Shown here piece by piece: positions 26,530 through 30,999 of a DNA stretch of 36,834 bases. Origin of the DNA: Lachnospiraceae bacterium (GTDB taxonomy: Bacteria; Bacillota; Clostridia; Lachnospirales; Lachnospiraceae); NCBI GenBank assembly GCA_024680675.1, contig JAILBX010000285.1, positions 1 to 36,834 of the forward strand. The letters are read 5' to 3'. Every line of letters starts with the position of its first letter. Within the stretch, counting starts at the first letter, position 1. The translations under genes were made by a program, and so were the position numbers. The notes under the pieces are model-generated. The model ran no database searches and was not told where the DNA came from. It saw only the letters and a program-made list of their open reading frames with translations.

Positions 26530-26721
26530 TTATGCGTTCTGGATAGCCTTCATAAGATCATCTATATCTATTCCATGAACCATTGCAGCTTCCTCAAGGC
26601 TCTCCATCTGAGATGCAGGGCATCCGAGACAGTGCATTCCCGCTTCCATCAACAGAGGCGCCACATTGGGGGCTGTTCTTAAGATTTCTCCGATCGTTGT
26701 TTCCTTCGTTATCTCTGCCAT
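26530..26721 (-). CDS. DUF1858 small protein
   Basis: 63-residue product with the DUF1858 pattern: [23 protein letters not shown] then [15 protein letters not shown]. Cys31 and Cys34 form the conserved CLGC pair, which suggests a redox or metal role; similar domains are found alone or attached to hybrid-cluster and other redox proteins in anaerobes. The start is the ATG at 26721, 7 bases after GGGAGG; the in-frame ATG further up lacks a ribosome site. It has no obvious partner gene, lying between mecA and the pfl control region. Confidence 0.88.
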
Positions 26722-26778
26722 ATCATTTCCTCCCTTTTTGATCAATTGTTTTATCTTTCCGTTTCACTGGTCAACCTC

Positions 26779-27124: not shown

Positions 27125-27153
27125 TTGACTTGTATACACTATTTCATTATAAT
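27125..27153 (+). promoter_or_regulatory. promoter of the pfl operon
   Basis: TTGACT (27125-27130), an exact 17-base spacer and TATAAT (27148-27153), the best sigma-70-type promoter in the window. The transcript would start near 27160, leaving about 109 bases of leader with a possible CTGACC/GGTCAG hairpin (27180-27185 with 27222-27227). Confidence 0.8.
27130..27139. promoter_or_regulatory. TTGTATACAC palindrome, site 2 (in promoter spacer)
   Basis: Nine of ten bases match TTGTATACAA. It starts on the last base of the -35 box, so a bound protein would compete with RNA polymerase. Confidence 0.5.
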
Positions 27154-27165: not shown

Positions 27166-27268
27166 CAAATCTAACAGTTCTGACCGGATCAGATCAGAGT
27201 CAGGCAAATGTTTTGATCAGTGGTCAGTTACAACAATTTATTCAAGAAAAATAGGAGGCTATAGTCAA

Positions 27269-29308
27269 ATGAGATCAGAATGGAATGGTTTCGTAGGTGG
27301 CAAATGGGAAAGTGAGATCAACGTAAGAGATTTTATCCAGAAGAATTATACACCTTATGATGGTGACGGTTCTTTCCTTGCCGGACCTACACAGGACACA
27401 AAGGATTTATGGAATCAGGTATTGGACCTTCAGAAGCAGGAGCGTGCAGCAGGCGGAGTTCTTGATATGGACACAAAGGTAATTTCCACTATTACCTCAC
27501 ATGGTCCCGGATACCTTGACAAGAGTAAGGAGAAGATCGTAGGATTCCAGACCGATAAGCCTTTCAAGCGTTCACTTCAGCCTTATGGTGGTATCCGTAT
27601 GGCAGAGAAGGCTTGCTCGGACAACGGTTATGAGGTTGATCCCGAGATCAGCGAATTCTTCGCAACACACAGAAAGACACACAACGCAGGATGTTTCGAT
27701 GCTTACAATCAGGAGATGAGAGCTTGTCGTTCATCCCACATTATCACAGGTCTTCCTGATGCATACGGACGTGGACGTATCATCGGTGACTACAGAAGAG
27801 TTGCTCTTTACGGTATTGACAGACTTATCGAGGATAAGCAGGAGCAGAAGGATTCCACAGGAAGAGTTATGACAGATGATGTTATCCGTCTTCGTGAGGA
27901 ATTATCAGAGCAGATGACAGCTCTTAAGATGATGAAGGAAATGGCTGCTTCCTACGGATGCGATATTTCAAAGCCTGCTACAAACGTACAGGAAGCTATC
28001 CAGGCTACCTACTTCGGATATCTTTGCTCAGTTAAGGAGCAGAACGGTGCAGCAATGTCTCTTGGACGTACTTCAACCTTCATTGACTGCTTCGCAGAGA
28101 GAGACTTAAAGAACGGAACCTTCACAGAGGAGCAGATCCAGGAGTTCATCGATCACTTCATTATGAAGCTTCGTTGCGTTAAGTTTGCTCGTACACCTGA
28201 ATACAATCAGATCTTCGCAGGTGATCCCGTTTGGGTTACCGAATCAATCGGAGGTGTTGGTGTTGACGGACGTCATATGGTAACAAAGATGAGCTTCCGT
28301 TATCTTAACACTCTTATAAACTTAGGACCTTCACCTGAGCCCAACCTTACAGTTCTCTGGTCTACAAGACTTCCTGAGAACTTCAAGAAGTTCTGTGCTA
28401 AAATCTCTATAACAACATCTTCCATCCAGTATGAGAATGATGACCTTATGAGAGTTACTCACGGTGATGACTACGGTATCGCCTGCTGCGTATCCTCAAT
28501 GGTAATCGGTAAGGAAATGCAGTTCTTCGGAGCTCGTGCTAACCTTGCAAAATGTCTCTTATACGCTCTTAACGGTGGTGTTGATGAGGTTACAAAGAAG
28601 CAGGTTGGACCTAAGTATCGTCCTGTTGAAGGCGATGTATTAGACTATGATGATGTATTATCCAAGTTTATGGATATGATGGAGTGGCAGGCTGACGTTT
28701 ACGTTAACACTCTTAACATCATCCACTATATGCACGACAAGTATTGTTATGAAAGAGCAGAGATGGCTCTCCATGACAAGAACGTAAAGAGATACTTTGC
28801 AACAGGTATCGCAGGTCTTTCAATCGTTGCTGACTCACTCTCAGCTATCAAGTATGCTAAGGTTGAGGTTATCAGAGATGAAGACGGAATAATCACTGAC
28901 TTCAAGACAACCGGTGAATTCCCTAAATATGGTAATGATGATGATCGTGTTGACGAGATCGCTCAGAAGATCGTTCACAGATTTATGACAGCTGTAAGAA
29001 GACATCATACCTACAGAGGTGGAATACCTACAACCTCTATTCTTACAATTACTTCAAACGTTACTTACGGTAAGGCAACAGGTAATACACCTGACGGACG
29101 TAGAAAAGGACAGCCTTTCGCTCCCGGTGCTAACCCTATGCACGGACGTGATACCCACGGTGCTGTTGCTTCACTTTCATCAGTATCAAAGCTTCCATTC
29201 AAGGATGCACAGGATGGTATTTCAAATACCTTCACGATCATCCCCGGAGCTCTTGGTAAGGAAGATAAGGTATTCGCAGGAGATATCGAGCTTGACCTTA
29301 ACAAATAA
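27269..29308 (+). CDS. pflB: pyruvate formate-lyase core subunit, lacking the glycyl-radical domain
   Basis: Cleaves pyruvate with CoA to acetyl-CoA and formate. The 679-residue product aligns with PFL from its start ([25 protein letters not shown]) through the active-site pair Cys406-Cys407 in [10 protein letters not shown] to [15 protein letters not shown] and [10 protein letters not shown]. It then stops with a new tail ([12 protein letters not shown]). Classical PFL (about 740-760 residues) continues from that point into the C-terminal radical domain with RVSGYA. That domain is encoded separately at 29562-29810. The ATG at 27269 has TAGGAGG 10 bases upstream and matches the family start; the open frame from 27125 runs through the promoter. 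Codon use is of the highly expressed type (CGT, CTT, GGT), unlike the neighbouring AGA/AGG/ATA-rich genes. Confidence 0.93.
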
Positions 29309-29322
29309 GAAAGGATATAACT

Positions 29323-29526
29323 ATGGCAGAACGCAGTAACATGGCAGATGATTTAGTTGCTTTCTTAGATCAGTCAGTTGCAAACGGCGTGGGACATCTG
29401 AATGTGGACACTGATGAGTCATCGGAATCCCGTTCGGTAGAGACAATGGGATGTACGGATTGTTCAAGAACCCCCCTTGCCTGCAGTGTTCCTACCCTGC
29501 ATCAGGGACTTGATGATTACAAATAA
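29323..29526 (+). CDS. small Cys-tailed paralogue of the glycyl-radical domain
   Basis: A 67-residue protein I do not recognise as described. Residues 9-29 (DDLVAFLDQ, then GVGHLNVDT) align with residues 11-32 of the radical subunit (DNLVGLLDG, then GHHLNVNV). After that the two differ completely: there is no RVSGYA radical loop; instead the tail is acidic, then MGCTDCSRTPLACSV, giving Cys44, Cys47 and Cys54, and ends HQGLDDYK. AAAGGA lies 7 bases before the ATG. It sits 14 bases after pflB and 35 bases before the radical subunit, in a different frame from both. It may bind the same groove of PflB as the radical domain, as a protector, scaffold or radical quencher (inference). Confidence 0.8.
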   Translation: MAERSNMADDLVAFLDQSVANGVGHLNVDTDESSESRSVETMGCTDCSRTPLACSVPTLHQGLDDYK

Positions 29527-29561
29527 AATCATAAATAAAAATTAAGAAGGAGGAAAATATT

Positions 29562-29810
29562 ATGGCAGTAGAAGCAAGTCAGACTCAGATCGACAATCTT
29601 GTTGGTTTATTAGATGGATATGCAACAAAGGGTGGACATCACCTTAACGTTAATGTTCTTAATAGAGATACTTTAATCGATGCTCAGGCACATCCTGAGA
29701 ATTATCCTCAGCTTACTATCCGTGTTTCAGGATATGCAGTAAACTTCATTAAGCTTACTCCCGAACAGCAGGCTGATGTTATCTCAAGAACATTCCATGA
29801 GGCTATCTGA
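29562..29810 (+). CDS. stand-alone glycyl-radical subunit of PFL (GrcA/YfiD-like)
   Basis: The 82-residue protein corresponds to the C-terminal domain that is missing from PflB. It reads [20 protein letters not shown], then [19 protein letters not shown] with the radical site Gly57, and ends [11 protein letters not shown]. This continues the classical PFL sequence almost without gap from where PflB stops. E. coli YfiD/GrcA, a spare part for oxygen-damaged PFL, has the same fold, but there the main enzyme still has its own domain. Here PflB has none, so this subunit should be essential for activity. AAGGAGG lies 8 bases before the ATG, stronger than the pflB site, suggesting ample production. 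Confidence 0.93.
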
Positions 29811-29849
29811 TCAATGATCTAAAGATTATAGCAGATCCCAAGTAATAAA

Positions 29850-29882
29850 AATGCCAGAGACTGTTTTACAGTCCCTGGCATT
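29850..29882 (+). terminator. intercistronic hairpin between the radical subunit and pflA
   Basis: AATGCCAG/CTGGCATT plus GACT/AGTC form a 12-bp stem with one mismatch and a 7-base loop. It is not followed by a T run, so it may act as a 3' stabiliser or partial terminator that lowers pflA relative to the structural genes. Confidence 0.55.
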
Positions 29883-29909
29883 GTATTAAGAAAAAAATGA
29901 GGTAAAAAC

Positions 29910-30701
29910 ATGACACAAGGACACATTCATTCACTTGAAAGCTTTGGAACTGTAGACGGACCGGGAACACGATACGTTGTATTTGTACAGGGGTGCCCTA
30001 TGCGTTGTATGTACTGTCACAACCCTGATACCTGGGCAATGTCCGGTGGAACACCTACTGATCCCGAGTACATTTTTGAACAGTACAAGCATAATGAACC
30101 TTTTTATAAAAATGGAGGAGTGACTGTAACCGGAGGGGAACCCCTTATGCAGATAGATTTTCTTATTGATCTTTTCTCCATTTTCAGAAAAAACAATGTA
30201 CATACCTGTCTGGATACTTCAGGTATAGCCTTCAGACCTGATGATGAAGAGCTTATGAAAAAGTATGACAGGCTTATGGAGCTTACCTGTCTTGTAATGC
30301 TGGATATTAAGCATATTGATCCCAGTATGCATCTTATGGTCACAGGTCAGCCCAATGACAATATTCTCGCCTTCGCCGAATATCTTGATAAAAAACAGGT
30401 GGATATGTGGATAAGGCATGTTGTAGTTCCCAATCTTACAGATGATGATAAATATCTTTACAAGCTGGGCTACTTTATAGGAGGTCTTTCAAACCTGAAG
30501 GCCTTGGATGTACTGCCCTACCATACTATGGGAAAAGTAAAGTATGAAAAGCTTGGCTACAAATACAGGCTTGCGGATACTCCGGCTATGTCACAATCCG
30601 AGGTTATAAAAAAGAAAGAGGTTATCCTTAACGGGATCCGTGACAAGCGTAAGGAGCTTGGCCTGTCAGGAGAACATCCTCATATAGGAAATGAAGAATA
30701 A
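29910..30701 (+). CDS. pflA: pyruvate formate-lyase activating enzyme
   Basis: Radical-SAM enzyme that takes a hydrogen atom from the glycine of the PFL radical domain. The 263-residue product has the cluster motif CPMRCMYC (Cys29, 33, 36), preceded by SFGTVDGPGTRYVVF, which is the PflA signature. VTVTGGEPLMQ follows at about residue 75 and CLDTSG near 107. It ends with a hydrophilic tail. It lies 99 bases after the radical subunit, behind a hairpin. Its natural substrate here would be the small separate subunit docked on PflB. Codon use is more ordinary (ATA, AGG) than in pflB. Confidence 0.95.
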   Translation: MTQGHIHSLESFGTVDGPGTRYVVFVQGCPMRCMYCHNPDTWAMSGGTPTDPEYIFEQYKHNEPFYKNGGVTVTGGEPLMQIDFLIDLFSIFRKNNVHTCLDTSGIAFRPDDEELMKKYDRLMELTCLVMLDIKHIDPSMHLMVTGQPNDNILAFAEYLDKKQVDMWIRHVVVPNLTDDDKYLYKLGYFIGGLSNLKALDVLPYHTMGKVKYEKLGYKYRLADTPAMSQSEVIKKKEVILNGIRDKRKELGLSGEHPHIGNEE

Positions 30702-30828: not shown

Positions 30829-30999
30829 ATGGCATATAAAATTGGCGATTCTTGTATCGCTTGTGGAACATGTGAAGGTCAGTGTCCGGTAGGTGCAATA
30901 TCTATGGGAGACGGCAAGTTTGAAATAGACGAGAGCATGTGTGTGAGCTGTGGCTCTTGTGCAGGAGCTTGTCCTGTAGGCGCTATCGAATCAGACTGA
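30829..30999 (+). CDS. 2[4Fe-4S] ferredoxin
   Basis: A 56-residue clostridial-type ferredoxin. Two near-identical halves each hold one cluster motif: Cys9, 12, 15, 19 (CIACGTCEGQCP) and Cys38, 41, 44, 48 (CVSCGSCAGACP). Length and cysteine spacing fit the classical family. It has its own promoter and ends at a bidirectional terminator, so it is a single-gene unit. PFL-activating enzyme needs a low-potential electron donor (flavodoxin or ferredoxin), so a position next to pflA is suggestive, but ferredoxins have many partners and the link is inference. Confidence 0.95.
   Translation: MAYKIGDSCIACGTCEGQCPVGAISMGDGKFEIDESMCVSCGSCAGACPVGAIESD

Follow-up and report, generated by a model that had tools for sequence, protein, structure and literature searches.

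A naturally split pyruvate formate-lyase with a separate glycyl-radical subunit and a conserved cysteine element in Lachnospiraceae

The window, that is, the whole 36,834-nucleotide stretch of Lachnospiraceae DNA analysed here, contains four plus-strand genes in a row (27269-30701): a pyruvate formate-lyase (PFL) core gene pflB, a small gene that we call mid, grcA3 and pflA (Table 1). Immediately 3' of pflA lies a gene for a small two-cluster ferredoxin (30829-30999), a possible electron donor for the activase, while a DUF1858 / hybrid-cluster-associated redox disulfide protein is encoded divergently from pflB (26530-26745, minus strand). The consensus scan returned 7 promoter-like sites in the region against a mean of 10.6 in shuffled sequences, that is, no excess, and the terminator scan returned 2 sites against 2.3. 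The hairpin in the grcA3-pflA gap perhaps sets differing mRNA levels.

Table 1 Features of the split PFL cassette (positions in the window)
Feature	Position	Strand	Evidence
Sigma-70-like promoter, TTGACT-17-TATAAT	27125..27153	+	consensus scan, 11/12 matches
pflB core (PFL without complete glycyl-radical domain, 679 aa)	27269..29308	+	TIGR01255 1092.1 bits, model 2-665/744; PF02901; PF01228 1-51
C406-C407 codons (IACCVS), active-site cysteine pair	28484..28489	+	invariant in 24 split cores (alignment A2)
Split-specific core end, 13 residues, strand-like by eye	29267..29305	+	GD-[LIV]-x-[LIV]-[DE]-like pattern
mid, third component (67 aa): radical-domain-like N-half and cysteine tail	29323..29526	+	conserved in split cassettes
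mid residues 7-30, like first half of glycyl-radical domain	29341..29412	+	hhalign against GrcA3, E 1.1e-6
mid residues 41-66, Cys tail GCTDCSRTPLACSVPTL..D	29443..29520	+	pN/pS 0.11; profile match to core tails
grcA3, autonomous glycyl-radical subunit (82 aa)	29562..29810	+	NF038360 159.6 bits; PF01228 49-106
Radical glycine Gly57 codon	29730..29732	+	invariant in A4; aligned with E. coli G734
15-pair hairpin, grcA3-pflA gap	29850..29882	+	terminator scan stem, terminator-like on minus strand only
pflA, PFL-activating radical SAM enzyme	29910..30701	+	TIGR02493 275.7 bits, cut-off 231.75

The core scores above the cut-off of the PFL model TIGR01255 (1092.1 against 994.2), but its alignment stops at model position 665 of 744, and it has no complete C-terminal glycyl-radical domain in its own chain as a classical PFL does. 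Specifically, the 106 positions of the Pfam domain PF01228 are shared out between two proteins, with 1-51 falling on the core end and 49-106 on the 82-residue protein. The latter lies barely above the cut-off of the GrcA3 family NF038360 (159.6 against 158), and the pflA product exceeds that of the PFL activase model. As the sequence-only reading had claimed, PflB keeps both catalytic cysteines (C406/C407) and breaks off inside the radical domain, while the part of this domain with Gly57 (RVSGYAV) lies on its own downstream gene. The gap between the two measures 253 bases. The two genes are in different frames (offset 2293, not divisible by 3), and each is preceded by its own Shine-Dalgarno-like site, recognised by eye (AGGAGG, 27253-27258; AAGGAGG, 29547-29553).

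The same split arrangement recurs at many other loci, so the split is neither chance nor an assembly error. A stop-codon error or a pseudogene is ruled out by the different frames together with this conservation. Additionally, a GD-[LIV]-x-[LIV]-[DE]-like pattern specific to the split marks the end of 91 of 101 split cores, and it was not seen in the full-length PFL ends compared. Family models and conservation thus bear out the proposal of a core with a separate glycyl-radical subunit: the natural split of PFL is confirmed at this locus, and it is a lineage trait.

The same reading had reported a gene between the two. The gene is indeed present, but it is not incidental: its product, mid, is a conserved third component of the cassette, which that reading overlooked. 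Neither Pfam nor NCBIfam holds a curated family for mid, and with mid as query no match was found among PDB sequences. In the alignment of 43 mids (A1), residues D16, G24, H25, C47, A53, C54 and P57 are invariant. The N-half of mid aligns with the N-half of GrcA3 over 30 columns (hhalign, E 1.1e-6, probability 91%), and 30 of the 43 mids weakly match GrcA3 (best E 1.2e-4). The similarity is limited to this half; mid reaches 12 bits against the GrcA3 cut-off of 158, and no RVSGYAV radical glycine loop is present in the mid alignment rows inspected. The C-half carries a cysteine tail, with three cysteines in the last 35 residues of 62 of 75 mids; two divergent mids (L179, L180) end shortly past the first Cys pair. 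Pairwise comparison of 36 of the 43 mids gives a pN/pS of 0.11 in the tail, 0.31 in the N-half and 0.56 in the linker, and the Cys tail is under strong constraint. A chance open reading frame is excluded by the conservation and the low pN/pS. Mid-like genes also occur away from any PFL (L181 in genome G299, and L186 in G381, a weak match). The ACSVPT stretch of the mid tail (PLACSV) slightly resembles ACCVSS of the core active site (IACCVS), which may be chance.

AlphaFold predicts mid alone as mostly disordered with helix as its only element (mean pLDDT 61.3). The core model is poor (mean pLDDT 62.8), with a disordered C-terminus below 50 that includes the split-specific end, and docking is not visible in these single-chain models of either protein.

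A scan of genome contigs with the 82-residue protein found at least 580 relatives, of which 80 loci were kept; the named relatives are mostly Lachnospiraceae and also include Ruminococcus and Massilimicrobiota. In an even draw of 200 genomes from the window's family, 171 have a TIGR01255 match and 76 have GrcA3 in its own short frame, at thresholds of E <= 5.1e-44 for autonomous GrcA3 and E <= 5.1e-10 for mid. A frame of 183 residues in G419 (E 1.3e-30), near the lower end of the matches listed, was left out because it scores like a full-length PFL domain, and it is maybe a cut gene. The 76 split genomes comprise 51 with mid, 24 with a core Cys tail and 1 with neither, while the remaining 124 genomes contain no full mid match. 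Across 299 genomes drawn from the phylum, PFL-like proteins are present in 166, and a full mid match is found only in the window's own genome and in one other member of its family; two additional, weak mid matches correspond to N-terminal halves of radical domains, in frames 751 and 775 residues long. PFL frames shorter than 740 residues occur, among the matches listed, only in the two mid-bearing genomes and in a contig-end gene (G207).

Mid and the core Cys tail appear as exclusive alternatives. Among 101 split cores, 75 have a mid, 24 have a core tail, 2 have neither and none has both. Mids were found here by HMM, and tail-type cores are those with at least two Cys after the split point, whereas each of the 75 mid-bearing cores has fewer than two; one core (L152) was counted as tail-type, its 'mid' match being its own cut GrcA3. 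The set is not random, since most cores came from a similarity-ranked scan and the others were chosen for lacking mid; L001-L003 and L084 (the window itself), L085-L088 (including split genome G204) and L129-L146 were left out of the count. The core tails of mid-less cassettes, e.g. DCKDLACNIPNI and GCGDMACKVPTLHKGID, were read in alignment A3: 14 of the 24 show C-x-[IV]-P, 6 show C-x-E-P and 4 differ (L156, L161, L163, L172). In a profile comparison, mid tail and core tail match over 18 columns (E 3.2e-5, probability 73%). Only two cysteines are present in 18 of 23 core tails counted, with widely varying spacing. The counterpart of strand 10 that is copied in mid is absent from tail-type cores, which have only a short GD-x-x strand-like stretch there. 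Of the two cores with neither element, one (L148, G299) has a mid elsewhere in the same genome (the above-mentioned L181). The other (L166, G408), in the order pflB-pflA-grcA3 with no mid found and no Cys tail, is the lone exception, indicating that the Cys element is not strictly essential. In the 200-genome draw, core ends were read for all 24 tail genomes and for part of the 51 mid genomes; the distance from the end of the core match to the start of the mid match is 42-218 bases in the 41 of the 51 mid genomes with both matches listed, which leaves little room for a core tail in most mid genomes.

Fisher tests on this exclusivity give very small p values but ignore kinship. Kinship was considered on a quickly built tree of 108 cores, rooted at the midpoint and supported by SH-aLRT values alone, from which L205 (longest frame on the wrong strand) and L200 (cut site not found) were excluded. 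On it the split PFLs fall into a single supported group (88 rows), within which three full-length PFLs are nested, and the tail/mid character needs 6 changes. The tree offers three well-supported independent pairs for exclusivity (seven on all branches); on average 2.8 of the 3 behave as expected and none is opposite, while 3 pairs cannot reach p 0.05. For the association of the split with the Cys element, on average 1.9 of 3 independent pairs point the same way, 1.1 show no difference and none is against, with one nested sequence (L194) set by hand as element-bearing; the pairs are again too few for significance. This L194 (G377) is a one-chain PFL in which the core is followed by a stretch with VTCGCEEVTCAV and then by the radical domain, an apparent natural re-fusion; the other nested full-length PFLs, L192 and L196, have no Cys stretch.

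In E. coli PFL, the alignment places the counterpart of the mid N-half at about residues 683-710, the helix and strand that join the radical domain to the barrel. According to PMC8683613, residues 696-733 of E. coli PFL, including strand 10, act as a recognition element for YfiD. When they are missing, no binding of YfiD is detected and the radical yield falls 32-fold, yet YfiD complexes with PFL truncated at 695 have wild-type activity once activated. The natural split cores have no region equivalent to 696-733, and mid carries the first part of it in trans. Because the mid N-half resembles this helix and strand and the core tail starts there too, the vacated docking site is the most likely place of action of the Cys tail.

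We propose, as a fairly probable account, a multi-chain PFL that is activated by PflA, draws its radical from GrcA3 and has a Cys tail serving the vacated docking site. The core would carry the substrate site with the catalytic cysteine pair, and GrcA3 would carry the glycyl radical for it, docking where an ordinary PFL has its C-terminal radical domain; PflA would activate the assembled chains. The Cys tail, as the C-half of mid here and as the C-terminal core tail in related cassettes, would belong to the system, marking or holding the vacated site and helping to load or seat the radical subunit, and its thiols might give redox or radical control or serve as a thiol placeholder. We infer that the chains assemble, that they depend on one another, that mid docks in the strand-10 slot and that the thiols have a role at all. 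Loading does not explain the conserved cysteines. A bolder idea, which we offer tentatively, is that the Cys tail is a new glycyl-radical control element: the part-copy would dock and mark the core as ready, and the thiols would guard or quench the radical. In this view the element can reside on the core or form part of a protein of its own, and this one small part would seem to have changed chains several times during evolution.

Other roles for the third component can be weighed against this proposal. The enzyme might be an ordinary core plus GrcA3, with mid or the core tail just stabilising or folding the core, or binding metal. The predicted disorder of mid alone and the three cysteines at the end of most mids, which could bind metal, would suit such a role; the mid N-half, however, resembles the radical domain specifically, and the variable Cys spacing together with the many two-Cys core tails argues against a rigid metal site, and we regard this explanation as unlikely. 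Mid could instead be a competitor or cap in the strand-10 slot that keeps GrcA3 off and shields the active site, or quenches the radical under oxidative stress. Such a function seems doubtful to us: the slot-filling segment of mid, its missing radical glycine and the invariance of C47 and C54 in A1 would fit, but tail-type cores lack the strand-10 copy. Far less credible is that mid is the precursor peptide of a radical SAM enzyme, or a stray pseudogene, although it is small, Cys-rich and near a radical SAM gene, and although 1 of the 43 mids weakly matches TIGR04118 (E 0.0099). The adjoining radical SAM gene encodes a standard PFL activase, related tails are fused to PFL cores and the tail pN/pS is low, and on these grounds the peptide precursor was dropped.

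The multi-chain proposal also has to be set against a reading of GrcA3 as a mere spare part, with the main work done by a complete pflB elsewhere in the genome. Room for this is left by the assembly itself (2.64 Mb, 288 contigs), which is 85% complete, and by at least 3 of the 76 split genomes (G368, G400, G410), where a full-length PFL-type frame stands beside the split; GrcA3 is thus not necessarily the sole PFL radical source everywhere. In the window's own assembly, however, PF02901 matches once and PF01228 twice, on the core end and the small protein, and within its 85% completeness neither a full-length PFL-type radical domain (PF02901/PF01228 search) nor the complete second pflB that was sought is found. 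A congener from the same genus (G459, 99% complete) has the split pair alone in PF01228, and the core itself lacks the radical glycine. For the window's genome the spare-part-only reading is therefore very unlikely and was dropped, no complete PFL being found in the 85%-complete assembly or, by PF01228, in G459. The small subunit is probably obligatory there, because the window's genome and G459 offer no other PFL-type glycyl domain; the earlier expectation of an obligatory subunit thus gains support, on purely genomic grounds.

In all 20 split genomes chosen for a PF01228 search, both the split core and an autonomous GrcA3 were found. Three of them (G459, G474, G300) have only the split pair, and G393 has the split pair with a second GrcA3 and nothing else. 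The other matches lie in frames of about 713-756 residues, among which L183 is NrdD-like by eye, and two full-domain matches lie in frames of 791 and 851 residues (G404, G464). The latter two look like other glycyl-radical enzymes, since they are absent among the listed TIGR01255 matches, which reach down to about 1081 bits. Class III ribonucleotide reductase (NRDD) is matched twice in the window's own assembly, whereas no match to an EKR-type pyruvate:ferredoxin oxidoreductase is found there, an absence that is weak evidence at 85% completeness.

A second autonomous GrcA3 is present in at least 12 of the 76 split genomes. Other grcA3 genes are orphans with no PFL beside them, and 21 such loci were inspected. 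The upstream gene was tested in the 8 where it resembled a regulator by eye (L038, L042, L051, L058, L060, L067, L074, L080), and in all 8 it proved to be of Crp/Fnr type and to lie no more than 1 kb away; in L042 and L067 a further ORF, thioredoxin-like in L067, lies between regulator and GrcA3. Such orphans may serve the split enzyme as genuine spare parts. The second GrcA3 copies and the regulators at orphan loci make it plausible that, as the sequence-only reading had suggested, replacement is cheap, with only 82 residues renewed after oxygen cleavage.

Fermenting bacteria of gut and rumen break down much of their pyruvate through PFL, one of their main routes, and the enzyme's backbone is cleaved by oxygen at the radical glycine. 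A swappable radical subunit would be a clean system for following the installation, seating and loss of a glycyl radical, which is hard in a one-chain PFL, and through the conserved Cys element one can approach the question of how such enzymes may be protected or reloaded in strict anaerobes. Additionally, a complete split system may be misread in annotation as a broken pflB gene.

Several known systems resemble parts of this cassette. The core resembles classical PFL (TIGR01255; E. coli PflB, 1h16) in passing the equivalog cut-off and in keeping the cysteine pair, whose E. coli counterparts are numbered C418/C419 in the literature, but classical PFL has the radical domain in its chain, whereas here it is on another gene. 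E. coli GrcA/YfiD (TIGR04365) has a radical domain related in sequence to the 82-residue protein, which nevertheless falls below the TIGR04365 cut-off (99.1 against 170). According to PMC8683613, YfiD has a 60-residue disordered N-terminus and repairs complete PFL after oxygen cleavage, and it also serves truncated PFL in vitro. The partner of YfiD is a complete PFL, whereas the core here never has the radical glycine, and no complete PFL accompanies the small subunit in the window's 85%-complete assembly or, by PF01228, in G459. The 82-residue protein passes NCBIfam NF038360 (GrcA3), a family that covers the small protein alone and was compared by name and score. Two PDB entries named 'Formate acetyltransferase' were compared by sequence match only: 38la, with 687 residues, stops at the split point, and 38lb, with 739, extends beyond the aligned end by about 44 residues, continuing with the two-Cys stretch GECDMCEM. 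Neither seems to hold a radical domain, because the GrcA3 query found neither at E <= 0.001. Our search, which left most subscription journals outside, found no paper on split PFL, mid, the tail/mid pattern or these two entries. Together, the name of the GrcA3 family and entries 38la and 38lb indicate that others already know of the split, at least in part, while mid with its Cys tail and the tail/mid pattern are likely the new part of the system.
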